From: an uncultured Chlorobiaceae bacterium
GTDB taxonomy: Bacteria > Bacteroidota > Chlorobiia > Chlorobiales > Chlorobiaceae
Direction: 5' to 3'
DNA length: 41,606 bases
Assembly (NCBI GenBank): GCA_903940125.1
Contig: CAJAJL010000099.1
Span: 1-41,606, forward strand
Both the position numbers and the translations under genes were made by a program. Every line of letters starts with the position of its first letter. The stretch's first letter is position 1. This document shows positions 14,657 through 27,537 of the stretch, piece after piece. Under the pieces are notes generated by a model, which was given only the letters and a program-made list of their open reading frames with translations, was not told the DNA's origin and searched no databases.

Positions 14657-15238
14657 ATGGCTAAACCAACGCTTATCCTTGCCTCGCAATCCCCGAGACG
14701 AAAGGATATACTCTCTTTAATGCAGATACCATTTGAAACCGTAGCCGTTGAGACTGAGGAAATTTTTGACCCTTCATACTCTATCGAACAGAACGTCACC
14801 GCCATTGCTTTAACGAAAGCAGAAGCTACGGCTGCACAGATATCGGGTCACAAGAGAAAAACTGTAATTCTCAGTGCAGATACTGTGGTGGCAAAAGGCA
14901 ACCAGATTCTTGGAAAACCTGCCGGTTTCGATGAGGCATTCATTATGCTCAAAAGCCTGCAAAACCGATCGCACCGAGTCTACACCGGTTTTGTGCTGCT
15001 TTTCGGCGAAAAATCATACACGGAATGTGTTGCCACTACTGTTGAGTTTGAGCCGATGTCCGACAATGAAATCCAGCGCTACCTTCTGTCAGTGAAACCA
15101 TACGACAAGGCAGGAGCATACGGCATTCAGGATCCACTGATGTCCTGTTATATCAAACGTATTGAGGGGTGTTACTATAATGTTGTCGGTCTCCCGCTCT
15201 CAAGGGTCTGCAAGGCCTTGAAACCTTTGTTATGCTGA
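14657..15238 (+). CDS. Maf-like nucleotide pyrophosphatase
   Basis: A 193-residue Maf/HAM1-fold protein that hydrolyses non-canonical or canonical NTPs (dTTP/UTP type). The N-terminal signature [14 protein letters not shown] is diagnostic. The central [18 protein letters not shown] supplies the metal/base motif, and [10 protein letters not shown] is the conserved C-terminal loop. It begins 10 bases after the symporter gene and overlaps the start of miaA by 7 bases, so the three are probably one transcription unit. Confidence 0.92.
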
Positions 15239-16209
15239 TAACCGGCCAAGGTGAGGAAAAACTGCATCAAGCAACTGATGATCAAGCTGTCCATGTTATA
15301 CTCGGTCCTACAGCTTCCGGCAAATCAGCTCTTGCTCTGGCACTGGCAAAAAAAACAGGCGCAGAAATCATTTCCGCAGATTCCCGGCAGATATACCGCG
15401 AACTCGATATAGGTTCAGCCAAACCCTCAGCAGAATCACTTCGCGATATAAAACATCATTTTATCAATGAAAAAGATATCGGTGAACCGTTTACTGCAGG
15501 CGACTTTGCCATTGAAGCGATAGAACGGATTCACAACATCCACCGGAAGGGCTTACGCGCAATAGTTACCGGCGGTTCAACACTCTATCTGCAAGGATTA
15601 CTTGAAGGTTTTGCAGATTTACCTCCAGGAAATCAGGAAATCAGGAAAAAGCTTCTTCATGAACTTGAATGCACAGGTAAAGATGAGCTTTATAAAAAAC
15701 TTCTCCTGATAGATCCTGAACAAGCAGCAACCCTTGATCCCACAAAAACCCAGCGACTCATTCGAAGCCTCGAGATTATTGAGATAACTGGGATAAGCGT
15801 TACGGAACTGCAGGCACGAGGAAAAAAAGCACAGACCGGAATCCGCTTTCTTGTCTGGGGACTTTCAATGCCACGCGAGAAGCTCTACAACCGTATCAAC
15901 CAACGTACCGAGGAGATGCTTGAGGCAGGCCTTCTGGCTGAAGCGGCAATGCTTCATCATAACTATCGGGCAATGCTTGCACATCATAACATATCAGCAC
16001 TGCAATCGGTGGGATACCAGGAACTGTTTCAATACTTCGACGGGAAAATCGACCTGGCAAAAGCCATTGATCTTATAAAGCAGCATACACGCAATTATGC
16101 AAAACGTCAGTTGACTTTTTTTAAAAACAGACTTGATGTCACCTGGGCGGATGCTCCTGAAAACGAGAGTGAACTGGCAGCACTTGTCGAGCGGTTGGCC
16201 AACCTTTAA
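15232..16209 (+). CDS. miaA: tRNA dimethylallyltransferase
   Basis: Adds the isopentenyl group to adenosine 37 of UNN-reading tRNAs. The P-loop GPTASGKS is followed by [18 protein letters not shown] and [15 protein letters not shown], all hallmark MiaA motifs. The C-terminal [17 protein letters not shown] is also conserved. It has 325 residues, close to family length. The start ATG at 15232 lies inside the 3' end of maf, implying translational coupling. The next 280 bases hold no gene I can support. Confidence 0.95.
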
Positions 16210-16492
16210 TAAATAAGGCTTTTTACTGTATCAGGATGCTCGACGCTTCCTCTTTGCATCTGATTACCCAGTCAAGAGTGCCAGTTGGCATTGCGTTCTC
16301 CATTTTGTTAATGATCTCTGCTCATCATCTTCAGAAAAATGCCGCACCATCATCTCACTGTTATCCATCAACATTCCGGATAACGAACGGCGGAGATAAC
16401 ACACACCTAAAAAAATGAGGCGCAGGATATTGCTTGCACAACTCACCTGCACCCCAAATTATGTCCCCCCTAAAATTCAGCCCCTTAATGCT

Positions 16493-16714
16493 TCATTTTG
16501 AGAACCATGAGTCGTCGGCAGTCTTCTCCCATTTGTCAACCATTTTTTCAGCATCTTCTTTAGCAATGCCATACCGCTCCTGGATCTTACCGAGAAAGTG
16601 TACTCGTTTCCCTGCGACAACATCAAAATCATCATCAGTGAGCTTACCCCACTGCTCCTGCACTCTACCCTTGAGTTGTTTCCAGTTACCTTCAATCTGA
16701 TCCCAGTTAATCAT
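16493..16714 (-). CDS. CsbD-like stress protein
   Basis: A 73-residue hydrophilic protein with the CsbD pattern MINWDQIEGNWKQLKGRVQE followed by GKLTDDDFDVVAGKR. This family is general-stress induced in many bacteria; its biochemical role is unknown. The ATG at 16714 has a strong AAGGAGAT ribosome binding site. It is the last gene of a minus-strand group that includes a 75-residue protein and bacterioferritin. Confidence 0.9.
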   Translation of the reverse strand: MINWDQIEGNWKQLKGRVQEQWGKLTDDDFDVVAGKRVHFLGKIQERYGIAKEDAEKMVDKWEKTADDSWFSK

Positions 16715-16856
16715 TCGTATCTCCTTTTTGGTTCATAAAATTCATCTTCTCTTCTTCAAAATATTACAGCATCACATTACTTTTTCAGCATTATAAGCAT
16801 ACCGTTTTCGATTGAGCACTTTATCCAAGACGTTTAAAGCACTTTTCAAAAACAGC

Positions 16857-17084
16857 TTACTTTTTAGAAGGAAACACTGATAAAACCCCCTGCAACACCT
16901 GATTAACTGACGATAAGACGTTACCCGCAAGGTTTATCGAAGTTGTGCCAACAAAAACAATGAAATTTGTGGCTGTGATGATTCCAAGTTTTACCAGCTC
17001 AACTTGATAGTGGGCAAGTTTACCAATGGTTTCCGGCAACGTGTGAAGGTCACCTTGATACTCATTAATTGATACGTTTGTCAT
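16857..17084 (-). CDS. Small hypothetical protein
   Basis: A 75-residue protein I do not recognise. The first third is polar (MTNVSINEYQGDLHTLPETI). The rest is amphipathic to hydrophobic with Val/Leu/Ile heptad-like spacing (VELVKLGIITATNFIVFVGT and INLAGNVLSSVNQVL). This would suit a membrane-associated or phasin-like helix pair. It lies between csbD and the SDR stub on the same strand, so a stress-linked role is possible. Confidence 0.6.
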   Translation of the reverse strand: MTNVSINEYQGDLHTLPETIGKLAHYQVELVKLGIITATNFIVFVGTTSINLAGNVLSSVNQVLQGVLSVFPSKK

Positions 17085-17120
17085 GGTTGTTATTGTTTAG
17101 ATTTATTAAAGGTCAACATT

Positions 17121-17210
17121 TCAATATCCCCGTTCCTTGAACTCTTTCACCGCATATCTGCCGAGATATCCAGATGCACCGGCAACCAGCACTTTTTTCA
17201 TATCGGTCAT
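17121..17210 (-). pseudogene. N-terminal stub of an NAD(P)-binding SDR/NmrA-type protein
   Basis: A 29-codon frame starting ATG at 17210 encodes a first beta-strand and dinucleotide loop (KKVLVAGASGYLGRYAVKEF) and stops with TGA right after KERGY. The GASGYLG loop is the NAD(P) motif of NmrA/SDR proteins, which are normally 250 residues or more. Nothing downstream continues it in any frame I tried. It begins only 3 bases after the bfr stop codon, so it is likely the debris of a former operon gene. Confidence 0.7.
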
Positions 17211-17213
17211 TGG

Positions 17214-17681
17214 TTATCCGAGTTGATCAGCAAGATAGTTCTGGATACCCATTTGGCTGATCTGGTTAATCTGTGCTTCAAGCCAATCAAGGTGCCCCTC
17301 TTCATCTTTGAGAATTGATTCCAACAGCTCTCTGGTACCGCTATCACCGATCTCTGTAGCAAGCTTTATACCATTATTGTACATGGCGATAGCTTCGGTT
17401 TCTGAATTCAGGTCGTTTTTGTGCTGTACAGCAACATCTGAACCAATTGAAATTTTTTTAAGGTGGCTAACGACAGGAATTCCTTCGAGGAAGAGAATTC
17501 TCGCAATAAGCTTTTCAGCATGCTTCATTTCGTCGATTGCACGCTTTTCATCAGCTTTGTGCAGTTTTTCGTATCCCCAATTGCTGCACATTTCAGAATG
17601 CACAATGTACTGGTTAATAGCCGTCAACTCGTCGGCAAGCAAGCTGTTAAGGGTTTCGATGATTTTCGGATTACCGTTCAT
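17214..17681 (-). CDS. bfr: Bacterioferritin (heme-binding type)
   Basis: A 155-residue subunit of a 24-mer iron store. All ferroxidase ligands fall at the E. coli Bfr numbers: Glu18, Glu51, His54, Glu94, Glu127 and His130. Met52, the heme axial ligand between subunits, is present, so this should be the heme type. The start ATG at 17681 follows AAGGAGAGC. Its upstream region is a very AT-rich 250-base gap shared with the divergent lmo0937-type gene. I see no clear Fur box. Confidence 0.93.
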   Translation of the reverse strand: MNGNPKIIETLNSLLADELTAINQYIVHSEMCSNWGYEKLHKADEKRAIDEMKHAEKLIARILFLEGIPVVSHLKKISIGSDVAVQHKNDLNSETEAIAMYNNGIKLATEIGDSGTRELLESILKDEEGHLDWLEAQINQISQMGIQNYLADQLG

Positions 17682-17953
17682 AATGCTCTCCTTGAAGTTT
17701 TATTGATGCATTGGCTTTGTCTAAAGGCTGCATTCTTTGTTCGTTATCGGGTTTGAAGCAGCCGAAACCCTGTAACTCATACACTTATATTATATATATT
17801 ATTTCAATATGCAACTTAAAAAAGCGTTTATTTCGAAAATAATAGTGTTTTTATAAATTAATTATATATAATATAAGTATACAAGTGAAGGAGTTGATCG
17901 GTATTGGTCTTTGTAATTTTGATCCATGTATTCATAATTAAAAGGAGAGAGAA

Positions 17954-18100
17954 ATGCTTGAAACTATCGCAGTGATCCTGATTGTCCTCTGGCTTTTAGG
18001 TCTTGTTACCTCGTACACGATGGGCGGGCTTATTCATGGACTTCTGGTTATCGCAATCGTGGTTATCGTGATTCGTGTTCTTCAGGGCCGAAGCATTTAG
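17954..18100 (+). CDS. lmo0937-type mini membrane protein
   Basis: A 48-residue protein with two hydrophobic segments (ETIAVILIVLWLLGLV and LLVIAIVVIVIRVLQG) joined by a glycine-rich turn SYTMGGLIHG. The layout and ending RVLQGRSI match the lmo0937 family of tiny membrane proteins, whose function is unknown. A textbook ribosome binding site AAGGAGAG precedes the ATG. It is divergent from bfr and followed by about 300 bases without a convincing gene before the sigma-like gene. Confidence 0.85.
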   Translation: MLETIAVILIVLWLLGLVTSYTMGGLIHGLLVIAIVVIVIRVLQGRSI

Positions 18101-18397
18101 CAATACTGAAAGTGCAGAAGGTATCAGAAGAGAGTACCGCAACAACGAAGGCAGAAGAAGACTTGATCAGCAGCGCAGTGATGTAAACCGCAGCGGGTAC
18201 CGCTACGCAGGCTTATAGTACTTGAATATAACGCTTTAAATACAACTATTTCAGATATTACTGACAAGCTTAAAAATTGATACATATTGCAATCGCCTTC
18301 CAACGGGTTCACAGCATGTAACAGCTGCGGATCCGTTTGCATGCCGAGCTTGATGAACAGGTCAATCATTCATGAAATCATAAAACGGAGAGGTTGT

Positions 18398-18823
18398 ATG
18401 ATCAAGGCTAAAAGAACACCGCTGGATTTAATGGATGATATTTACAGTCTTGCCTATTGGCTGACCGGTTCTGAGACAAAAGCGACTGAACTGGTAAACA
18501 ACACCTATCTGAATGTTGATAATAAAAGTTCTGAAACCGAAGTATTTACAATATTCAGAAGCTGTTATTTGGAGAGTATTGATCAGGATGATGCATCCAG
18601 CCTGCCTGAAACACCCTGCTTTTCAAAGGAAACTCCAGGGATTGCACTCTTTAAGCAGGACGCAGATATAAGGTTATCAGTCTTGCTGTCAGCGATTTCA
18701 GGACTCAAACACCGAACCATATCCAGAATACTCGGCAAACCACTGACGACCATAAGAATATGGTTATCCGAGGGGCGTAAATCGCTGGTTCAGGACACCC
18801 GGTTTGGGCTTTGGTGTTGCTGA
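18398..18823 (+). CDS. Degenerate ECF sigma-factor-like protein
   Basis: A 141-residue product from ATG 18398, chosen because GGAGAGG lies at the right distance. A longer frame from 18287 has no such site. The N terminus (LDLMDDIYSLAYWLTGSETKATELVNNTYL) resembles sigma region 2.1-2.2. The C-terminal stretch (SGLKHRTISRILGKPLTTIRIWLSEGRKSL) resembles the region 4 helix-turn-helix with its closing RxSL. Region 2.4 and the linker are shortened, so promoter recognition would be unusual. The last codons overlap the antisense tail of the HigA-like gene. It might be a working sigma-like regulator of the nearby stress genes or a decaying one. Confidence 0.5.
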   Translation: MIKAKRTPLDLMDDIYSLAYWLTGSETKATELVNNTYLNVDNKSSETEVFTIFRSCYLESIDQDDASSLPETPCFSKETPGIALFKQDADIRLSVLLSAISGLKHRTISRILGKPLTTIRIWLSEGRKSLVQDTRFGLWCC

Positions 18824-19103
18824 AACGGAAAAGCAATTTTTGGTGAGGGGTATTGAACTGCATCCCTTCTTCAATATCATAGTCATCCTGCAGACCTAAC
18901 CAGAACTTTGCGGAGTTTCCGAAATATTGTGAAAGGCGCAATGCTGTGTCTGCCGTAATACGTCTCCTCCCTTTCAATATTTCGGATATCCGGGTCTGAG
19001 GGATCCCGATATCTTTGGAAAGTCTGTAAGCCGATATTTCTAATGGAATTAAAAACTCTTCCATCAAAACCTCGCCTGGATGAATATTTCTTAGTTCGTT
19101 CAT
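18705..19103 (-). CDS. HigA-family antitoxin with a foreign C-terminal tail
   Basis: A 132-residue frame. Residues 1-79 are a clean HigA/VapI-type XRE protein: IHPGEVLMEEFL, helix-turn-helix RLSKDIGIPQTRISEILKGR (27-46), and SAKFWLGLQDDYDIEE. HigA normally ends about 20 residues later. Here residues 80-132 instead read antisense into the sigma-like gene, producing a Trp/Ile-rich tail with no antitoxin character. No HigB toxin is visible upstream. The head is convincing; the real protein is either chimeric or non-functional. Confidence 0.75.
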   Translation of the reverse strand: MNELRNIHPGEVLMEEFLIPLEISAYRLSKDIGIPQTRISEILKGRRRITADTALRLSQYFGNSAKFWLGLQDDYDIEEGMQFNTPHQKLLFRFSNTKAQTGCPEPAIYAPRITIFLWSSVVCRVFWIWFGV

Positions 19104-19407
19104 TTCAGTAGGTGCCTGGCATTCTTTTGTTGAGGCAAAATACCTTGCTGTCAGTATTGTGATTTAGTCGGGGATTGATACTGAGGGTTTATTCTATAAC
19201 ATCGACTTTTACGCTTTTTTCACACAAAAACTCAGAATCGATATCCAGCCGGTTTGACCACTCTATCGTGTCGAACTTGACCGATACGGTATGAAATAGT
19301 GAGGGATTTCTCAGTTCTGCAAATTTACCGGTATTGAGGTAGGGGGTTACATCAAAAATTCTTTATGTCGAACCTACCCCCTTCTACAACCTCAAGTTGA
19401 TCAAACA
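19104..19407. other. Gene-free gap
   Basis: About 300 bases between the HigA-like gene and the DUF3037 gene. The only structure I see is an AGGGGGT/ACCCCCT 7-base stem with a long loop near 19341-19375. It lies just past the DUF3037 stop and may be a weak terminator. No HigB reading frame was found. Confidence 0.4.
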
Positions 19408-20325
19408 CTAACCCTTATGAAAAGCTTTTACCTGATGCTTCTTGATCCAGCTTGTAAACGGCTCTACTCCTTTTACCTTAGCCTCTTCCAGGACATCATC
19501 CATGAATTGACGAGTGTCAGAAACCAAGACAACCTCGTACGGCTTATTGTCCGTAACCAAGTCGATGAAGTTCAAGGCTTGCTTTGCCCCTTTTTGTTCA
19601 GCTTGCTTTTTGTCAAGAATTATTTTTTGTTCCTTTTTACCTGCCCCATAGAGCTGATTTAAGCAATCATAGAGACTTATTGTTTTCGAAATATTCTCTG
19701 ATAATGTCGATCCGCTTGCATTAAGGTTCAAAAAATGACCGCAATAAATGGCGCCATTACCTCCAATAAAATCGAGACGAATTTCAGGCAAAAGTATTTC
19801 TGTTTGCAATTCTGCTGAATCAAGCTTGTAATCAATATTCAGATAGCGTTGAAAATCGAAATCATCTTTGGCCATTCTGCGAAAAGCCGTAGCCAATGTA
19901 TGACGACCTTTTGATCTGTTTTTTTCGATTTTCTCCTGTTTATCAGCTATCAACTTATTATACAACCTGTCAAAACGCTGCTCAAGCAGGTCATCGGCAG
20001 ATTCGTCAGGGTTATCATGCGCAATCACAAGCTGCTTTGGTGCAGTATAGCGAATGACGCCGTTTTCATAGACGGAAAGGTATTCAAGGTGTTTAACGTC
20101 AACAGACTCCCGGCTCTTTGCGAGACCTTCAGTCTGCTGTATTGCGCTCTCAAGAAGTGAGGATTTGTCAATACCAAGCGCACGATTAATTCGAGTCACA
20201 CGCTCCCGCGAGAAGCGTACTTTTACAGCACCACTCTCAGGGCTCACCATAATTAATCCGATGCCAAAAAACTCATCACGGTCAGGATTCGGCGCATATT
20301 TTACGGTTGTGAAATAGGTTTTCAT
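19408..20325 (-). CDS. DUF3037-like protein
   Basis: A 305-residue protein whose N terminus (YFTTVKYAPNPDRDEFFGIG, then LIMVSPESGAVKVRF) has the pattern of DUF3037. The family is of unknown function and often encoded beside HipA-like kinases. Typical members are 120-130 residues. Here the protein continues for another 180 residues with Lys/Glu-rich helices (IADKQEKIEKNRSKGR) and a later globular section ending WIKKHQVKAFHKG. The start codon overlaps the stop of the upstream remnant as ATGA, so the pair was translationally coupled. It could be an orphan half of a toxin-antitoxin-like or kinase module. No catalytic motif is obvious. Confidence 0.6.
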   Translation of the reverse strand: MKTYFTTVKYAPNPDRDEFFGIGLIMVSPESGAVKVRFSRERVTRINRALGIDKSSLLESAIQQTEGLAKSRESVDVKHLEYLSVYENGVIRYTAPKQLVIAHDNPDESADDLLEQRFDRLYNKLIADKQEKIEKNRSKGRHTLATAFRRMAKDDFDFQRYLNIDYKLDSAELQTEILLPEIRLDFIGGNGAIYCGHFLNLNASGSTLSENISKTISLYDCLNQLYGAGKKEQKIILDKKQAEQKGAKQALNFIDLVTDNKPYEVVLVSDTRQFMDDVLEEAKVKGVEPFTSWIKKHQVKAFHKG

Positions 20326-20624
20326 GGCATTTTAATCTTTGCGTCCACTAAAAGCTGTTGATAGAAACCTCGAACTAAATCTTTTCGGGGCAACAGATAG
20401 TGTTTTATAATCGATTCTTTTTCTGTCTCTTTGACTTCCCACTCATTGGGAATTTCATTCATTATGTCGCGAAGCTCTTCATCTCTTATGCTCTCTATCC
20501 GGCCAAGAACCCTGTCAGCTTCATCAGAGTAAAAAAGCCCGAGTGCGTATCGAGTATTTCCTTGATTTTGTTCTGTATCATTAGCCCTCTTATGTGGCTG
20601 CTATTCAGAAGTTTTAAACATCAT
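20322..20624 (-). pseudogene. Remnant of the gene coupled to DUF3037, possibly HipA-like kinase C terminus
   Basis: Translating this gap on the minus strand gives ATG-ATG plus five codons, then an in-frame TAG at 20603-20601. After it come 92 uninterrupted codons including RYALGLFYSDEADRV, LGRIESIRDEELRDIMNEIP and NEWEVKETEKESIIKHYLL. The frame ends in a TGA that overlaps the DUF3037 ATG. The acidic helix followed by IPNEW and a basic LLPRKDLVRGFYQQLL helix is what C termini of HipA-like kinases next to DUF3037 genes look like. That identity is an inference. The kinase core is absent, so this is a broken gene. Confidence 0.55.
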
Positions 20625-20689
20625 TCACCCGTGAAGGTGATGCTGCCAATGATTCAATATCAATTTTGAATGATACCTGACTTGATCGA

Positions 20690-20908
20690 TTAGGAATAAA
20701 TAGTATACGAAAATCGTTTAGAATACATTTGATGAAGACCAAACTTTTTCTGGTGAATACCTGCGTATATAATCAGGGATTCAATATCTGAAATCAAACA
20801 GTCCCAAAAATAATCACCTACTCCTTGTTCCTGAATATCATAAAAATCTTTTCCGTCATTTAAATCAACAAATGCTTCTTCAATTATAAAGACATCCTTG
20901 ATTCTCAT
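20690..20908 (-). pseudogene. C-terminally truncated ParE/RelE-type toxin
   Basis: A 72-residue frame with the RelE/ParE fold pattern: VDLNDGKDFYDIQEQGVGDYF, central helix ISDIESLIIYAGIH, and the strand KRFSYTIYS. Full toxins continue for 20-25 more residues (usually an IYY...V.V.AV.D strand pair); here a stop follows at once. A +1 shift would continue as YLFLIDQV, so a frameshift near 20697 is possible. It overlaps the antitoxin stop by TAATG, a normal antitoxin-toxin coupling. The toxin is probably inactive. Confidence 0.65.
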
Positions 20909-21111
20909 TATGGACGACTCTGTTTAAGTTCCGAAAGTGAAATAAATTTTGCATTTCCAGACGCAATCTTCTCTCTTCTTTCCTGAAGTATATTTTTATG
21001 CCACTCAGGAGTTTCGATTGTCTCATGCTCATAGCGAAAACTATCCCAAAGCGATTCCATAACCTGTAACCGCTCCGAAGTGCTCATTTTCTTTATTTCT
21101 GCCATATCCAT
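20908..21111 (-). CDS. Addiction-module antitoxin (Unstab_antitox type)
   Basis: A 67-residue acidic protein with the pattern of the short antitoxins paired with RelE/ParE toxins: MAEIKKMSTSERLQVMESLW, then TPEWHKNILQERREKIASG. It precedes the truncated toxin with a 1-base stop/start overlap. The ATG has a strong AAAGGAGAC site. Its partner is broken, so it may now be an orphan. Confidence 0.78.
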   Translation of the reverse strand: MDMAEIKKMSTSERLQVMESLWDSFRYEHETIETPEWHKNILQERREKIASGNAKFISLSELKQSRP

Positions 21112-21172
21112 CTCTTGTCTCCTTTTTATAACGATTCAATACTCATAAGACTGGTTCCACACTGCATAACTC

Positions 21173-21379
21173 TTAATACTGCCATTTTTCAAATTTCTTC
21201 TTCGCATGAGCCTGCACTATTCCCTTGCCTTCCCGGATCTCTTGTTCTCCATGTGAAAATTTGACATACACATAAAGGGCATAAATAATTTCATCCATTG
21301 AAACATCATTCAACAAAGAATCAATCACCTTTTTTGCTGTTTCTTTATCTCTACAAGTCACTTTCTTCAATTCCTGCAA
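21173..21379 (-). CDS. Small antitoxin-like protein
   Basis: About 60-68 residues (TTG or GTG start; no suitable ATG). Motifs KETAKKVIDSLLNDVSMDEI, YALYVYVKFSHGEQEIREGK and AHAKKKFEKW fit a family of short antitoxin-like proteins usually set before a ParE/RelE toxin. Here it follows hicA, overlapping its 3' end by 29 bases, and precedes another antitoxin rather than a toxin. A fragment of a second copy of its first codons is seen at 22203-22234. Confidence 0.6.
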   Translation of the reverse strand: MQELKKVTCRDKETAKKVIDSLLNDVSMDEIIYALYVYVKFSHGEQEIREGKGIVQAHAKKKFEKWQY

Positions 21380-21557
21380 CTTTCATAAAATACCGAAGCA
21401 AACCGATTTTTAAGTCCGCATTTCCATGAATTGGAACGGATAGTCTGGCCGGATTTTCTTGTTTCATATAAACATGATGGCTACCGTTTACCCGTACCAA
21501 ACGCCAGCCTTTATTTTCAAGAAGCCGCGCAAAGTGTTTTCCTGAAACAGATTTCAC
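21351..21557 (-). CDS. hicA: HicA-family mRNA interferase toxin
   Basis: A 68-residue double-stranded-RNA-binding-fold toxin. The conserved core GWRLVRVNGSHHVY (17-30) contains the His27/His28 pair that includes the catalytic His. PARLSVPIHGNADLKIGLLR is the second family motif. It starts within the hicB stop codon (ATGA). Gene order hicB then hicA is the reverse of E. coli but common elsewhere. All key residues are intact, so it should be active. Confidence 0.9.
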   Translation of the reverse strand: MKSVSGKHFARLLENKGWRLVRVNGSHHVYMKQENPARLSVPIHGNADLKIGLLRYFMKVAGIEESDL

Positions 21558-21757
21558 AGCACAAGCTCAAAAACCTTGTCATTTTCAGCAATCTCGATTG
21601 TTTCCAAATCCACAGAAAGACAGGCATCTACAGCGTCGTGCAGGTTTGCCAGAAGCTCCTCCATCGTCTCTCCTTGAGTTGCGCAGCCCTGAATTGCTGG
21701 CACTTCCGCCCAAAACCCCCCCTCTTCCGCAGGGTGTACAATAATTTTTAATTTCAT
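21554..21757 (-). CDS. hicB: HicB-family antitoxin
   Basis: A 67-residue HicB without the extra DNA-binding domain. The degenerate RNase H fold is seen in IIVHPAEEGGFWAEVPAIQGC and ATQGETMEELLANLHDAVDACL. It neutralises the coupled HicA toxin. A decayed partial copy of this gene lies at 23931-23971. Lacking a ribbon-helix-helix tail, it may not repress its own promoter. Confidence 0.9.
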   Translation of the reverse strand: MKLKIIVHPAEEGGFWAEVPAIQGCATQGETMEELLANLHDAVDACLSVDLETIEIAENDKVFELVL

Positions 21758-21930
21758 ATATAGCTTTTAATAGTAAGCACATCGCCCGTTTTTTCCGCTG
21801 ATATTTCTGAAGAATAAAAGCCATCTGCAACTCATGGCGCAGCAATACTTTCATTGTACCAATTAAATCCATCAACAACAAGGGAGAACAAAGCTATCAC
21901 AAGGAGTTAAACTTATCCGTTCACCCACCG
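21670..21930. repeat. Direct repeat copy 1 (hicB 5' half plus Rpn 3' flank)
   Basis: Three blocks here recur in order at 23931-24102: 21670-21710 inside hicB (41 bases, 3 mismatches), a block with AAGCCATCTGCAACT near 21819-21833, and 21899-21929 with CAAGGAGTTAAACTT. The copies lie about 2.3 kb apart, with the Rpn remnant, PIN and XRE-ImmA genes between them. Confidence 0.8.
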
Positions 21931-21941
21931 AAAAAAACCAA

Positions 21942-22217
21942 TCACAGCCCTTCCACAAGAGCAACTGGCAGACCAGTATAACGTGAAATCGTTTCTATGT
22001 CAAGACCTGCATCTTTAAGCTTTTTTGCAACTTCCAGAGCCTTTTGCTGACTGCCATCGGCCTTGCCATCATCATAAGCGGTATCAACAACATTCTTCAG
22101 GTCACGATATACCTTGAGACTTTCTTCATAAGCCGCTGCTTCCATGGTCCCCGCCCCCGGAGGCAAAAGGGTGATTTTCTTGAAACCAAAATCGGTGAAG
22201 GAGAATCCATCACTTGT
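21942..22217 (-). pseudogene. Internally deleted Rpn (PD-(D/E)XK) nuclease/transposase remnant
   Basis: One continuous minus-strand frame contains FTDFGFKKI (22199-22173), the start signature of Rpn recombination-promoting nucleases. A nine-residue joint TLLPPGAGT follows. Then comes the Rpn C-terminal tail EAAAYEESLKVYRDLKNVVD and TAYDDG with a final short helical motif ISRYTGLPVALVEGL. Roughly 200 residues with the whole nuclease core are gone. No good start codon is present in the remaining frame beyond a TTG at 22166. Confidence 0.75.
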
Positions 22218-22285
22218 TTTGCTGTTTCTTTATTGACCATAAGTTTTCACTGGATTTTCTGCAATTCGGCACTTTTCATACGCCT

Positions 22286-22783
22286 TTATAACCACTGCTT
22301 AATGCGATTGGCAACCTCATGTACAGGGAGTCTGACATTAATGCCTTGCAACTCCTTGAGCTTTTGAGCAGCTACCGAAGGAGTTGTGAGACCAGACTCG
22401 ACAAGCTGGTCAAACAACCACAAGCAGCCATGAACTTCAATCTTTTCCTGTTCGATAACTTTACGCAATTTTCTGTCGCCTGTAATTATCATAGCCTCTT
22501 CCCGTTTGGCTGCGGCCAGCAAGGAACAATCCTCAAATGAAACGCCACTGTACTTTCTGGCACTGAATGCAATTTCAAGCACTTCAACAGCATTGAACCG
22601 CTCAATACCCAGAACCCCATTGTCAATAAACGGCTGCAGCACCATTTGCTGTAGAGCATCTATCTCCTGCCATACAAAATCGGTCGTGCGCATATCAATA
22701 TTAATCTGAAACAGTAGATCCGCCAGACCAATTTTAACCATGTCAATCAGAATATTGGCATCATGTATAGCTACAATCACCAT
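22286..22783 (-). CDS. PIN-domain toxin
   Basis: A 165-residue PIN ribonuclease. The acidic metal-binding set is visible: Asp8 (IHDANILID), Glu40 (VWQEID), Asp85 (SFEDCSLLAAA) and Asp103 (ITGDRKLRK). It lies 18 bases downstream of the XRE-ImmA gene on the same strand. That pairing is known for predicted toxin-antitoxin operons in which a COG2856 protein is the antitoxin. All active-site residues are present, so nuclease activity is likely. Confidence 0.82.
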   Translation of the reverse strand: MVIVAIHDANILIDMVKIGLADLLFQINIDMRTTDFVWQEIDALQQMVLQPFIDNGVLGIERFNAVEVLEIAFSARKYSGVSFEDCSLLAAAKREEAMIITGDRKLRKVIEQEKIEVHGCLWLFDQLVESGLTTPSVAAQKLKELQGINVRLPVHEVANRIKQWL

Positions 22784-22801
22784 TCAGTGCTCGTTGAGCG
22801 A

Positions 22802-23848
22802 TTATATGAAAGACATCTCCTGTTGCAACTCATTGAGCGACATTCCGGCAAGTTCAGCAGCTTTGCTTATTGTTATAATCTCCTCTGCTACCGCTCTATC
22901 CAGCAATTGCCGAAACCGTGACGGCTCCTCCTTTGAGCGGTATTCACCTGGTTCTTCAGTCCGATATGGCGACCAGGCAATATAAAAGCGCTTGTACACA
23001 CTATCGGTAATAATTCCAAGGTTTTTTGCGCGCGCCATCAAGTCCTGTACCGAAAGACCAAAATACTCTTTCATTTCAAGCAGCTCTCTTACCGTAAAAT
23101 GCGTGCGAGTTGTACCAAATGCTTTTATAAAAGAGTCTTTCGGAAACAAAAATGCTCCGGCAAATACATGGGCAAGCTTTTCATTCTCCTTAACACTCCC
23201 TGCCTGAAACGCAAGTAACAGATGAGCCAATTCATGCAAAACGGTAAACCGCCGCCGCACTTTATCACGCGCCTTGTTGAACACAATGAGAGGCACCACA
23301 CCTGACCATGCCGACAGACCATCGAAGGCTGGATGACTGTTGAGCATCACCACTCTGATATTGAAATTTTCGACCATCTCAACGACATCAGGAATGGGAT
23401 CAACGCCAATACACCACTCTTGCCTGAGTCTATCTGCAAGAGCCTCAATCTCATCCGTTGATGATACCCGCATACCCGCCAGGGGATTGCGGAACGAGGA
23501 ATCAATACCAAGACACGACTCAAGCTCAATATAGCGTTCAAGCATGTCGCTGCTCTGAGCCTTGACTTTCTCCTTCTCCTTTTCAGGCAACACAGTATGT
23601 TTTCTGAACTCAATCGAATCAAGCGGCATGCTTTCCCTGAAAAGATAATCTGGCCTGACCTTTAAAGCAGAGGCTAGAGAGAGCAAAATTTCACTATCAG
23701 GCATCATCCTGCCCTGCTCGTATTTATTGATTGCCTGCCGTGAAACTGGCTTGATCATGCTTTCCGCAAGCTCCTGCAGCGACAACCCAGCCATCTTTCG
23801 GGCTGATTTAAGTCGCTCCCCAAAATGATACTGCATACCTGAAGACAT
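22802..23848 (-). CDS. XRE helix-turn-helix and ImmA/IrrE (COG2856) metalloprotease fusion
   Basis: A 348-residue protein. Residues 8-70 form an XRE repressor domain (FGERLKSARKMAGLSLQELA, then SRQAINKYEQGR). Residues about 130-300 are a COG2856 zinc peptidase-like domain with HELAH at 205-209. In IrrE/ImmA proteins this domain cleaves a repressor. The C terminus (TISKAAELAGMSLNELQQEM) is a second small helical motif as in ImmA-type antitoxins. It probably represses its own promoter through the inverted repeat at 23869-23907 and counters the PIN toxin encoded next. The intact HExxH means self-cleavage or substrate cleavage is possible. Confidence 0.88.
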   Translation of the reverse strand: MSSGMQYHFGERLKSARKMAGLSLQELAESMIKPVSRQAINKYEQGRMMPDSEILLSLASALKVRPDYLFRESMPLDSIEFRKHTVLPEKEKEKVKAQSSDMLERYIELESCLGIDSSFRNPLAGMRVSSTDEIEALADRLRQEWCIGVDPIPDVVEMVENFNIRVVMLNSHPAFDGLSAWSGVVPLIVFNKARDKVRRRFTVLHELAHLLLAFQAGSVKENEKLAHVFAGAFLFPKDSFIKAFGTTRTHFTVRELLEMKEYFGLSVQDLMARAKNLGIITDSVYKRFYIAWSPYRTEEPGEYRSKEEPSRFRQLLDRAVAEEIITISKAAELAGMSLNELQQEMSFI

Positions 23849-23868
23849 TGTTTGGCTGGTTCAGTAAT

Positions 23869-23907
23869 GGTTGACAAATAGTTTAAATAATATATATTTT
23901 GTCAACC
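23869..23907. promoter_or_regulatory. Inverted-repeat operator/promoter of the XRE-ImmA/PIN operon
   Basis: A perfect 10-base inverted repeat (GGTTGACAAA at 23869-23878, TTTGTCAACC at 23898-23907) with a 19-base AT-only-like centre, 20 bases upstream of the XRE-ImmA start. Each arm contains TTGACA, a consensus -35 hexamer facing inward, so promoters in both directions are conceivable. The obvious binder is the XRE protein itself. Confidence 0.75.
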
Positions 23908-23930
23908 GATAATCACAAAAAAATTCAGCT

Positions 23931-24102
23931 CTTCTTGAGTTGCGCAACCCTGAATTGCTGGCACGTCCGCCTAATAAGCCATCTGCAACTTTTGATCTGC
24001 AACTTATATCGCCGCGACGTACTTATTATACCAACTTAATACATCTAAACAAAAAGAGAACAAATCTTACACAAGGAGTTAAACTTGTCCGTTCAACCCA
24101 CC
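23931..24102. repeat. Direct repeat copy 2 (decayed hicB and Rpn flank)
   Basis: A shortened copy of 21670-21930 in the same orientation. 23931-23971 matches hicB, then about 110 bases are deleted and AAGCCATCTGCAACT follows directly. The end at 24072-24102 matches the segment past the Rpn stop. No coding capacity remains. The rest of the gap to 24307 holds no gene that I can support. Confidence 0.8.
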
Positions 24103-24307
24103 AGACGCAAAAGGTTTTTTGACCGATGATTGTCGCTGAAAATATCATATTAACTATGGGCTTTTTTTTTACCTTACTTATGAACGGTTTCGGCTATAAG
24201 ATCCATTTTATAAATTTTTTGTTAAAAATCCCTGCACCCTGCTAAACGAGCAGCACATTATATGCTTATACGGTAATGTTTTACAGTTATCAAAGTAGAG
24301 GTTTATC

Positions 24308-24892
24308 ATGAATTACTCAGTATCGAGCCGCAAAGAGTTGACTATTATGAAAATCGAAGAGGAGGTGTTTGATTTCCGTCATGGTGACTCATTCAAGCTG
24401 GCAATTGACGAATTGGTTAACAAAGAGAACTGCAAAAACCTGATTATCGATTTTTCTCAAGTAAAAGCTATTGATTCGTGCGGTATAGGTTCAATGCTGC
24501 TCGCTCACAAACTCTCCAATCAATCACAGGGACTTGCTGTTTTCGTTTCTCTTTGCAAACAGATCAAGGATCTGCTGAAATTGACGAATCTGAACAAACA
24601 GCTCTACATTTTTTCTTCTATTAACGAGGTTATAACACTCATAGAGCCGGCAATAAAAGGTAAGCGGGGTGCAGGGAGAAAATCTCAATCACAAGTCTAT
24701 GAAGCCAACGATGAGGTCAACGACGATCTTAGTGATGATTTAGACCTTATTGCCATACCTGATCTGCATGAGGAAAATCTTGACGAACACCTTGTAGAAC
24801 CTGATGAAATAAACGAGCAGACAGACCTCGCCGATCACCTTACAGAAAGTGAGCCCGGCTCCAAAAAAAGAGGACGCCCGAAAAAAGCTTGA
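24308..24892 (+). CDS. STAS-domain protein with acidic linker and C-terminal AT-hook
   Basis: A 194-residue protein. Residues 14-112 are a STAS fold of the anti-sigma-antagonist type. LIIDFSQVKAIDSCGIGSML carries Asp56-Ser57, the position phosphorylated in SpoIIAA. A basic stretch KGKRGAGRKS (117-126) follows, then an acidic linker of about 55 residues, then a tail GSKKRGRPKKA whose RGRP (188-191) is a canonical AT-hook core. STAS fused to an AT-hook is unusual and suggests a switch that binds AT-rich DNA. The cfa gene follows on the same strand, so the two may be one operon. ATG at 24308 has an AGAGG site; ATG 24347 is an alternative. Confidence 0.8.
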   Translation: MNYSVSSRKELTIMKIEEEVFDFRHGDSFKLAIDELVNKENCKNLIIDFSQVKAIDSCGIGSMLLAHKLSNQSQGLAVFVSLCKQIKDLLKLTNLNKQLYIFSSINEVITLIEPAIKGKRGAGRKSQSQVYEANDEVNDDLSDDLDLIAIPDLHEENLDEHLVEPDEINEQTDLADHLTESEPGSKKRGRPKKA

Positions 24893-25003
24893 CTACTACG
24901 GAGATTTTACCTACTTTAGTAGAGAGTGTTACCGTGCCCTGTGGAGCAGAAAGCAGATAGATATGTGCTACGGGGAGACCAAATAGGAAAAATTTGTCCA
25001 ATC

Positions 25004-26236
25004 ATGACACAAATTTTTACTCATTCAGGTCAGAGGGAAAACGAGCCGAAAACAGAACACAGGCAGTCAAGGTTTCTGGATAACCATTACCCTCCAGTCA
25101 AACTTCACTCTCGTGAAGTCATAGACAACTTCTGCAAAAATCAGTTAGAGCGAATCTTCGACGCCGCAGATATCAAAATCGGGGGTAACCGGCCATGGGA
25201 TATCCACATACACAACCCTCTGGTTTTTCGTCGCGCCATCACTGAAGGAAACCTCGGTCTTGGAGAGTCATACATGGATGGCTTCTGGGAGTGTGATGAT
25301 CTTGAGGAGTTCATGTTCCGGCTTATCAGTTCGAAAGCTGATGAAAAAATTGTAGCACCGGTCATGTTTATCGGAAAATGGATCGGTAAAACATATAACC
25401 TGCAGCGGCCTTCGAGAGCATATACCGTTGGTGAAACACATTACAATGCAGGCAATGATCTGTTTAAGGCCATGCTCGACCAGCGGTTGATTTACAGTTG
25501 CGGCTACTGGAAAGAGGCTGCCACGCTAGATGAGGCACAGGAAAACAAACTTTGCCTGATTTTTAACAAGCTGCAGCTTCAACCGGGAATGCACCTGCTT
25601 GATATCGGCTGCGGCTGGGGAGGAGCTGCCCGCTTCGCCGCCGAACACTATAAAGTCTCGGTAACCGGCATAACCATTTCAACCGAACAGGCCAAAATTG
25701 CAAAAGAATATTGTGCCGATGTCCCGGTCACCATTGAACTGATCGACTACCGCAAACTGCAGGGTTCTTTCGATAGAATTTATTCGATCGGCATGTTCGA
25801 GCATGTCGGTTATAAAAACTACCACAACTATTTCGATTTGATCAGCAGGTGCCTGAAACCGGACGGTTTAACCCTTCTGCACACTATCGGTTCGAACACT
25901 CCCACCACCAACGGTGATGCATGGAGCTGCAAATACATCTTTCCAAACTCGATGCTGCCGGCAGCAAGCCAGATCACAAAAAACTATGAGGGGCTCTTTA
26001 TTCTCGAAGACTGGCACGTTTTCAGTTATGACTACTCTCTAACACTTAAAGCGTGGTATAACAACTTCGAGAAGCATTGGCCGCTGCTGCAATCCAGTTA
26101 CTCTGAGAGATTTCACCGCATGTGGCGTTACTATCTTCTGAGCTTTTCCGGGGCTTTTCGATCCCGCTCCATTCAGCTCTGGCAGATTCTCCTCTCTAAA
26201 AACGGGCTTCCAGGAAGAACAACTATTGCTCGATAA
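25004..26236 (+). CDS. cfa: Cyclopropane-fatty-acyl-phospholipid synthase
   Basis: Transfers a methylene from S-adenosylmethionine to double bonds of membrane phospholipid acyl chains. The SAM motif LLDIGCGWGGAARF is clear. By position against E. coli Cfa the bicarbonate-site residues appear kept: Cys in YSCGYW, Glu in GMFEHVGY, His and Ile in LLHTIGSN, and Tyr in YDYSLTLKAW. The position of E. coli Cys354 (NACAGAF) reads LSFSGAF here, so that cysteine is lost. The frame is open from GTG at 24926; ATG at 25004 gives 410 residues, closer to family length, with AGGAAA about 14 bases upstream. It follows the STAS/AT-hook gene. Confidence 0.92.
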   Translation: MTQIFTHSGQRENEPKTEHRQSRFLDNHYPPVKLHSREVIDNFCKNQLERIFDAADIKIGGNRPWDIHIHNPLVFRRAITEGNLGLGESYMDGFWECDDLEEFMFRLISSKADEKIVAPVMFIGKWIGKTYNLQRPSRAYTVGETHYNAGNDLFKAMLDQRLIYSCGYWKEAATLDEAQENKLCLIFNKLQLQPGMHLLDIGCGWGGAARFAAEHYKVSVTGITISTEQAKIAKEYCADVPVTIELIDYRKLQGSFDRIYSIGMFEHVGYKNYHNYFDLISRCLKPDGLTLLHTIGSNTPTTNGDAWSCKYIFPNSMLPAASQITKNYEGLFILEDWHVFSYDYSLTLKAWYNNFEKHWPLLQSSYSERFHRMWRYYLLSFSGAFRSRSIQLWQILLSKNGLPGRTTIAR

Positions 26237-26244
26237 TGGTTTAT

Positions 26245-27537
26245 TCAGCGATAGAGAAGCTTTGCAGGATCGGTCCGGTTAAACAGCTCTATCTGCTTCC
26301 GGCTCTCGGCCATAATGTCGTCAAGCGGTAACTGTTTTTTGATCATCTCACGGAAGAGAGAGGTGCCGGCAAGCCGGTCGAAAAATATGTGTCCTTTATC
26401 GAGCGCTATTCCCTCAGGATAAAGACGCTGAAGGACAAGAAGAAGAGCAGCGGCTGTTTTGAACGGGCTGAATGTTTTTCTCTCTGTAATTGCAAGCTTC
26501 ACTCCCTGACAGCGTTCTCCTATGAATTTGCCCGACAATGGCTGAAAAGTAACAGCATCAAACACAACACCGGGCAGACTGTAAGCCTTGAGAGCATCTG
26601 CAAGCTCCACGCCATTGATGAACGGTGCACCAAACTGCAGAAACGGAGCATCAGTTCCTCGGCCTTCGCTGACGGTTGTGGCTTCAAGAAATACCGTCGC
26701 GGGATAGACTATTGCCGTGTCAATACTTCTGATATTCGGGGAAGGAGAGATAAACTGAAACCCGGGATACTCATCGGCAAACCTTGCACGATTGTACCCT
26801 GACATTGTTATGACCTTCAGATCAAGCTTTTTATACAAGCGCTCCTTCAGCAGCATGGCAATTTCACCGACTGTCATGGAATGAATAAAAGGGATATCGA
26901 CTGCTCCGACAAACGACTCATAACCGGGCGCAAGCATAAATCCAGCCGGAGCGAGGGGAATAACCGGATTGGGGCGATCAAGCACCATAAAGGGTATGCC
27001 AGCCTCCTCACAGGCCTGCATGGCATTTTTCATGGTCGAAATGTAGGTGTAACAGCGTGAGCCAATGTCCTGAAGGTCATAAACCAGCATATCAATAGTT
27101 TTCAGCTGCCGGATATCAGGTTTTTTGGAAGTCCCATAGAGTGAGAACACCGGAAGAGAAGCATGAACAATTGAAGGGCTGACCTTTTTTCCAGCTTCGA
27201 TATCCGCCGAAAAACCGTGCTCAGGAGCCATGATAAACTGGAGTCCGACTCCGTTCCGGAGCATGAGGGCATAATTCGGCTCCCCTGTCCGACTGACTCC
27301 AGCCACATTGGTAATGAGACCAACTTTCAAGCCTGCAAGCTCGTGGAATTCTGATGCTTCAAGACGGTCTATACCGTAGAGCAACGGTTCAGCTGAAGCG
27401 GAAAGAGTGAAAAAGAGAGAGAGAAGAAGGTAAACAGCGACGACAAAAGAAGAGCGCTTTGCGCGTGCATGAAAGAATGGAGAAAAAAAACATCCTTCAA
27501 TATTCATGACCAAGAGCTTCTTAACGAACATTTTCAA
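26245..27537 (-). CDS. Exo-beta-N-acetylmuramidase NamZ-type (DUF1343)
   Basis: A 430-residue secreted protein of the DUF1343 family, shown elsewhere to remove terminal MurNAc from glycan fragments. A signal segment SSFVVAVYLLLSLFFTLSASA ends near residue 49. Family motifs are GLKVGLITNVAGVSRTGEPN, MAPEHGFSADIEAG with the likely catalytic Glu, DLQDIGSRCYTYISTM and VLDRPNPV. It would act in the periplasm in cell-wall recycling. The gene ends 8 bases from the convergent cfa stop. The start is uncertain: ATG at 27537 or a Met about 12 codons later. Confidence 0.88.
   Translation of the reverse strand: MKMFVKKLLVMNIEGCFFSPFFHARAKRSSFVVAVYLLLSLFFTLSASAEPLLYGIDRLEASEFHELAGLKVGLITNVAGVSRTGEPNYALMLRNGVGLQFIMAPEHGFSADIEAGKKVSPSIVHASLPVFSLYGTSKKPDIRQLKTIDMLVYDLQDIGSRCYTYISTMKNAMQACEEAGIPFMVLDRPNPVIPLAPAGFMLAPGYESFVGAVDIPFIHSMTVGEIAMLLKERLYKKLDLKVITMSGYNRARFADEYPGFQFISPSPNIRSIDTAIVYPATVFLEATTVSEGRGTDAPFLQFGAPFINGVELADALKAYSLPGVVFDAVTFQPLSGKFIGERCQGVKLAITERKTFSPFKTAAALLLVLQRLYPEGIALDKGHIFFDRLAGTSLFREMIKKQLPLDDIMAESRKQIELFNRTDPAKLLYR

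Follow-up and report, generated by a model that had tools for sequence, protein, structure and literature searches.

What a protein built like a phosphorylation switch might do with a predicted DNA-binding tail is the question raised by a small gene in the window, the 41,606-nucleotide stretch of Chlorobiaceae DNA analysed here, which is contig C99 of a 2.98-Mb genome. The gene (24308..24892, + strand, as are all of its parts given below; ATG start, stop codon included) encodes a protein of 194 amino acids. Its residues 1–116 (24308..24655) form a STAS domain, as defined by a PF01740 match, AlphaFold2 and Foldseek, and a DSCG loop within this domain carries the predicted phosphorylation site, Ser57 (codon 24476..24478). 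The C-terminal 78 residues consist of a basic patch, an acidic linker and KKRGRPKK. The basic patch, KGKRGAGRKSQS, covers residues 117–128 (24656..24691), was delimited by its alignment position and has five K/R and no D/E. The linker, residues 129–183 (24692..24856), has 21 D/E and no K/R in 55 residues and is disordered in the AlphaFold2 model. The terminal AT-hook, GSKKRGRPKKA (residues 184–194; 24857..24889), has six K/R and no D/E, and its RGRP (residues 188–191) is encoded by 24869–24880. The tail therefore joins a disordered acidic segment to an RGRP hook, the combination by which HMGA-like tails are recognized. The original prediction had singled out this arrangement of STAS domain, basic patch, acidic linker and hook as non-standard, and domain match, composition and conservation all bear it out. 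The closest named relatives, at 36 of 36 loci and with identities of up to 91%, come from Chlorobiaceae and Chlorobium metagenome-assembled genomes, and on this basis the window's family is called Chlorobiaceae here. The architecture is real and deeply conserved; its function is what we infer below.

As had been proposed, the STAS domain belongs to the phospho-switch type. Residues 8–107 matched PF01740 with E=4.5e-12 and 46.1 bits, above the cut-off of 22.6, which identifies a STAS-domain protein. AlphaFold2, run on a 21-row alignment (mean pLDDT 67.5), gave an ordered structure up to roughly residue 117 and a low-confidence model thereafter, with ten-residue blocks of the STAS domain at about 68–91 and most of the tail below 50. 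The top PDB matches in Foldseek were TM1442, a Dyadobacter STAS protein, RsfB and SpoIIAA, with RsbV lower down, and the nearest proteins by sequence comparison were anti-sigma-factor antagonists (TM1442, E=3.3e-12; SpoIIAA chains, 2.1e-10 to 7.4e-9). In the alignment, the Ser57 loop corresponds to DSSG in SpoIIAA. We observed DSxGI in 83/83 distinct orthologues from the family and DSSG in 12/12 from other families of the order, so that the DSxG serine is retained in 95/95 sequences of the two groups together. By fold and loop the protein is a putative anti-sigma-factor antagonist.

The hook is a real conserved feature of the Chlorobiaceae protein. Removing duplicates from 116 Chlorobiaceae loci left 83 distinct sequences, two of them (L052 and L053) with the N-terminus missing, and RGRP was present in 82 of the 83. 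The single exception that we found, L167 from genome G090, keeps DSCG and a basic tail, and RGRPN is retained in L152, whose sequence is similar. Across 46 orthologues the codons for R, G, R and P occurred in 4, 4, 6 and 4 synonymous forms with the amino acids unchanged, indicating that conservation acts at the protein level; together with the near-invariance of RGRP, this rules out a chance AT-hook. The tail in the window scored 14.0 bits against the Pfam AT_hook model (PF02178), under the curated cut-off of 17.4. Seven of eight other family tails also matched this model, three of the eight above the cut-off, and neither of two tails from other families did. The linker contains a short hydrophobic–proline–acidic element, IAIPDL, with counterparts in the linkers of other families (LPELP and IPEI), and this element may be a docking motif. 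Such motifs were counted in 66/83 family and 10/12 other-family sequences, compared with means of 25 and 3 after shuffling, a count that serves as a lead only, since the pattern was picked after inspection and the sequences are related.

Beyond the family, the tail persists in another form. A search of the 98 genomes of the order (the class contains the same 98) matched the STAS protein in 97 at E≤0.001. Genome G002 had no match in this search, and the weakest-matching genomes, G049 and G100, were matched through other STAS proteins only; these three genomes are 77–88% complete. The tails from other families (n=12) again have an acidic linker, followed by a Lys-rich end with 8–20 K in the last 50 residues, and RGRP occurred in 0/12 of them, which rules out a hook universal across the homologues. 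The four sister-class proteins also carry acidic tails, which finish in RKRK or RRR. The refuting outcome named with the original prediction is thus split: the tail does not vary freely within the family, and in other families of the order the exact hook gives way to a Lys-rich end. Because the other-family tails are acidic and then Lys-rich without RGRP, the hook appears to be a form, specific to Chlorobiaceae, of an older tail that ran from acidic to basic, a view that rests on its distribution.

The same variation in the basic end can be read differently, as charge, rather than the exact hook, being kept across the order. The protein would then be an ordinary soluble RsbV-like antagonist whose tail is a polyelectrolyte that aids solubility or binds RNA, the ribosome or another polyanion, with RGRP not reading AT-rich DNA. 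The gene for MiaA, a tRNA-modifying enzyme, fits such a role in its position, lying within 1 kb upstream at 32/58 loci of the window's genus, 15/19 of a second genus and 11/12 of other families. However, charge alone is too weak a demand to hold an exact RGRP nearly fixed within the family while the surrounding linker varies in length and letters, and we consider this explanation unlikely.

A divergent STAS paralogue present in 11 genomes of the genus (L057, L058, L059 and L185–L192) offers a comparison with the orthologues. It has lost the DSxG loop in 11/11 copies (the serine is lacking in ten, and one has the serine without the glycine) and RGRP in 9/11, being kept in two. By contrast, the 83 orthologues show no loss of DSxG and one loss of RGRP. 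Fisher's test of hook retention (82/83 orthologues against 2/11 paralogues) ignores shared descent, and the paralogues group by similarity into a single clade, which makes the 11 copies non-independent. The pattern agrees with joint maintenance of hook and switching, with the caveat that the paralogues have a single origin, and phosphosite and hook appear to travel together when orthologues are compared with the paralogue.

A switch of this type would need a kinase, and nearly every genome of the order offers a conserved candidate. HATPase_c_2 matches were found in 41/41 relatives. A lone RsbW-like kinase of about 137 aa (PF13581) was matched at E≤1e-12 in 93 of the order's 98 genomes, 92 of which gave just one match; its KEAFxNAxxHGN and DCGxGF boxes are visible, and a PDB sequence search with it returned RsbW as a relative (E=3.3e-6). 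The gene beside it is presumably pgi, recognized by sequence. At L089 (14938–15351), L092, L093, L095 and L097 the kinase lies directly upstream of this glucose-6-phosphate isomerase-like gene. The candidate for the kinase partner anticipated as HPK-type is present as one conserved copy per genome and is better named an RsbW-like HATPase_c_2 kinase. In the 31 genomes with both genes on one contig, kinase and STAS gene lie 14–37 kb apart (median 16.4 kb); we gave little weight to this as close linkage, because general synteny could explain such spacing.

Nine genomes of the genus (G004, G007, G009, G014, G015, G018, G019, G022 and G023) make the pairing simplest. Their STAS matches consist of the hook protein and frames of at least 520 aa, which we take to be SulP-type transporters, and each has one strong short HATPase_c_2 frame among the matches listed (to about E=1e-5). 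With a single STAS candidate and a single strong kinase, the two would be each other's only obvious partners. G013 was excluded from this set for an ambiguous 172-aa STAS frame, and in G022 a piece of the STAS protein, 39 residues long, is also present.

Phosphatases and a sigma target were harder to find. SpoIIE matches occurred in 31/41 genomes; among the nine single-partner genomes SpoIIE was absent from seven, with weak partial matches in G018 and G023. PP2C_2 was matched in 3/9 genomes searched and was absent from G007, G009, G015 and G022, the four tested of the seven genomes lacking SpoIIE. A complete three-part switch was therefore not seen: of the partners proposed originally, a candidate kinase is present and the phosphatase is often lacking. 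A dedicated SpoIIE partner was not found in several genomes, and the two SpoIIE genes of the window's own genome (contig C107) were set aside, as they lie close to an RsbW of their own and to a pair of STAS genes that have DSSG loops and lack the tail. Sigma70_r2 matches numbered 2–8 per genome in nine genomes searched, and their frame sizes suggest housekeeping (RpoD) and ECF factors only, leaving no obvious sigma-B/F target. The missing phosphatases and the lack of a clear sigma-B/F factor point to a non-canonical output, much as in SypA-type systems, where the STAS protein itself is proposed to be the output.

The missing phosphatases would also suit a protein of nucleoid architecture, one whose STAS domain serves only for oligomerization or docking and whose loop serine has ceased to be switched. 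The composition of the tail, which resembles that of HMGA or histone-H1-like tails, agrees with such a role. Against it stand the invariance of the DSxG serine in both groups of orthologues and the persistence, in nearly every genome of the order, of a kinase whose ATP-binding boxes are visible, which make this account improbable.

The gene that follows encodes a cyclopropane-fatty-acid synthase (cfa; 25004..26236, + strand; PF02353, E=3.2e-82), which we judge to be a neighbour outside the system; homologue lengths make ATG 25004 its likely start, rather than GTG 24926. Beyond it lies the gene for another neighbour, the NamZ exo-beta-N-acetylmuramidase (26245..27537, – strand; PF07075 and PF20732). 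Downstream genes were tallied, after removal of duplicates, at loci with 1.5 kb of downstream sequence. A same-strand cfa gene directly follows at 46/59 loci of the window's genus and 19/20 of the second genus (65/79 family loci), a frequency that invites the idea that the STAS protein controls the downstream gene or its enzyme. However, at the remaining 14/79 family loci NamZ directly follows the STAS gene, 13 of these 14 keep RGRP, and in other families (n=11 informative) cfa adjoins in 0/11. The linkage is weak, and cfa is a frequent family neighbour and no constant partner. These loci led us to reject a partnership with cfa as the main function, and a regulator of cyclopropane synthesis is highly improbable; the role in membrane lipid modification that had been proposed from this linkage is not supported. 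At L033, L037, L041, L047, L049, L052, L072 and L073 the STAS gene is followed by a tandem pair of cyclopropane-synthase-like genes; elsewhere there is one or none.

The usual neighbours in other families are instead MiaA and a sodium:solute symporter, the latter lying downstream at 7/11 loci. In the sister class the symporter appeared in 5/5 rows (four loci, one entered twice), and the duplicate-free tally includes one sister-class locus with enough downstream sequence. The names MiaA, Maf and symporter come from sequence recognition and tblastn among the loci and not from a family search. In the window the MiaA gene (15232..16209, + strand, assigned by homology), commonly found just upstream of the STAS gene, is displaced by about 8 kb. 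The intervening 16210–24307 contains small genes of toxin-antitoxin-like kind, among them a HicA/HicB-like pair, an Unstab_antitox gene and an HTH/M78-peptidase gene; its gene content differs in other family genomes (for example, L003, L024, L025 and L029), as if this gap were an insertion hotspot.

Known systems share parts of this arrangement. SpoIIAA and RsbV share with it the STAS fold, the DSxG phospho-serine loop and a genome that also encodes an RsbW-like kinase. The Chlorobiaceae protein differs in an extension of about 78 residues that includes an acidic linker and a predicted DNA-hook tail, in the lack of SpoIIE from many genomes, in a kinase outside the operon and in that we saw no sigma-B/F-like target. 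For the tail, the closest likeness is to Myxococcus xanthus CarD, in which, as passages of PMC4374960 describe, a folded N-terminal protein-interaction domain is followed by an acidic segment and then RGRP hooks in a disordered C-terminus that binds AT-rich DNA. CarD has an RNA-polymerase-binding CarD/CdnL domain and four hooks, whereas here there are a STAS domain and one hook, and no homology is claimed. According to PMC8256260, the unphosphorylated STAS protein is proposed to be the output itself in SypA, RbaV and HmpV, and the output of these STAS switches has yet to be identified. In contrast to the protein described here, section 6 of that article describes no DNA-binding tail for them, and the terms DNA-binding, disordered and extension are not present in its main text (PMC8256260). 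In the literature searched, where papers on AT-hooks and anti-sigma factors were judged by their titles or the start of their abstracts, we found no description of a STAS/AT-hook protein or of anti-sigma antagonists of green sulfur bacteria.

Our best reading of these data is a DNA-tethered partner switch, with an RsbV/SpoIIAA-type front and an HMGA/CarD-like back, to which we assign a probability of roughly 45%. The original prediction had offered a DNA-binding partner switch as one possibility; the STAS type, the conservation of the hook and the kinase candidate favour it, and the pairing with the kinase, phosphorylation of Ser57, DNA binding and a transcriptional output are its conjectural parts. 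An antagonist-like switch of the RsbV/SpoIIAA type would have gained a DNA-binding, HMGA-like tail. The lone kinase near pgi would bind the unphosphorylated STAS face and phosphorylate Ser57, altering the range of partners that this face can bind, and the linker may be autoinhibitory. The switch would work while tethered to the nucleoid, where it would bring the kinase or an anti-sigma partner to DNA, or would itself be the output near promoters. The missing phosphatases, the lack of a sigma-B/F target and the loss of RGRP in L167 all weaken the tethered switch. In addition, a single AT-hook binds DNA weakly, which counts against it. The more specific idea that the protein is a kinase-controlled, hook-bearing nucleoid protein conserved throughout the family, so that the output of an Rsb-type switch is the DNA-bound STAS protein and not a freed sigma factor, is doubtful.

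The tails form a series, from acidic with a short basic end, through acidic and Lys-rich, to acidic with an AT-hook, which suggests a route of small steps by which a bacterial regulator can acquire an HMGA-like tail; for CarD, a gene fusion has been proposed, according to passages of PMC4374960. In green sulfur bacteria, an on/off switch usually held to act only through other proteins may sit on the chromosome. If so, a STAS protein that brings its own DNA-binding tail would answer the question of output directly, and in a testable way, for one lineage, phototrophs with few sigma factors.
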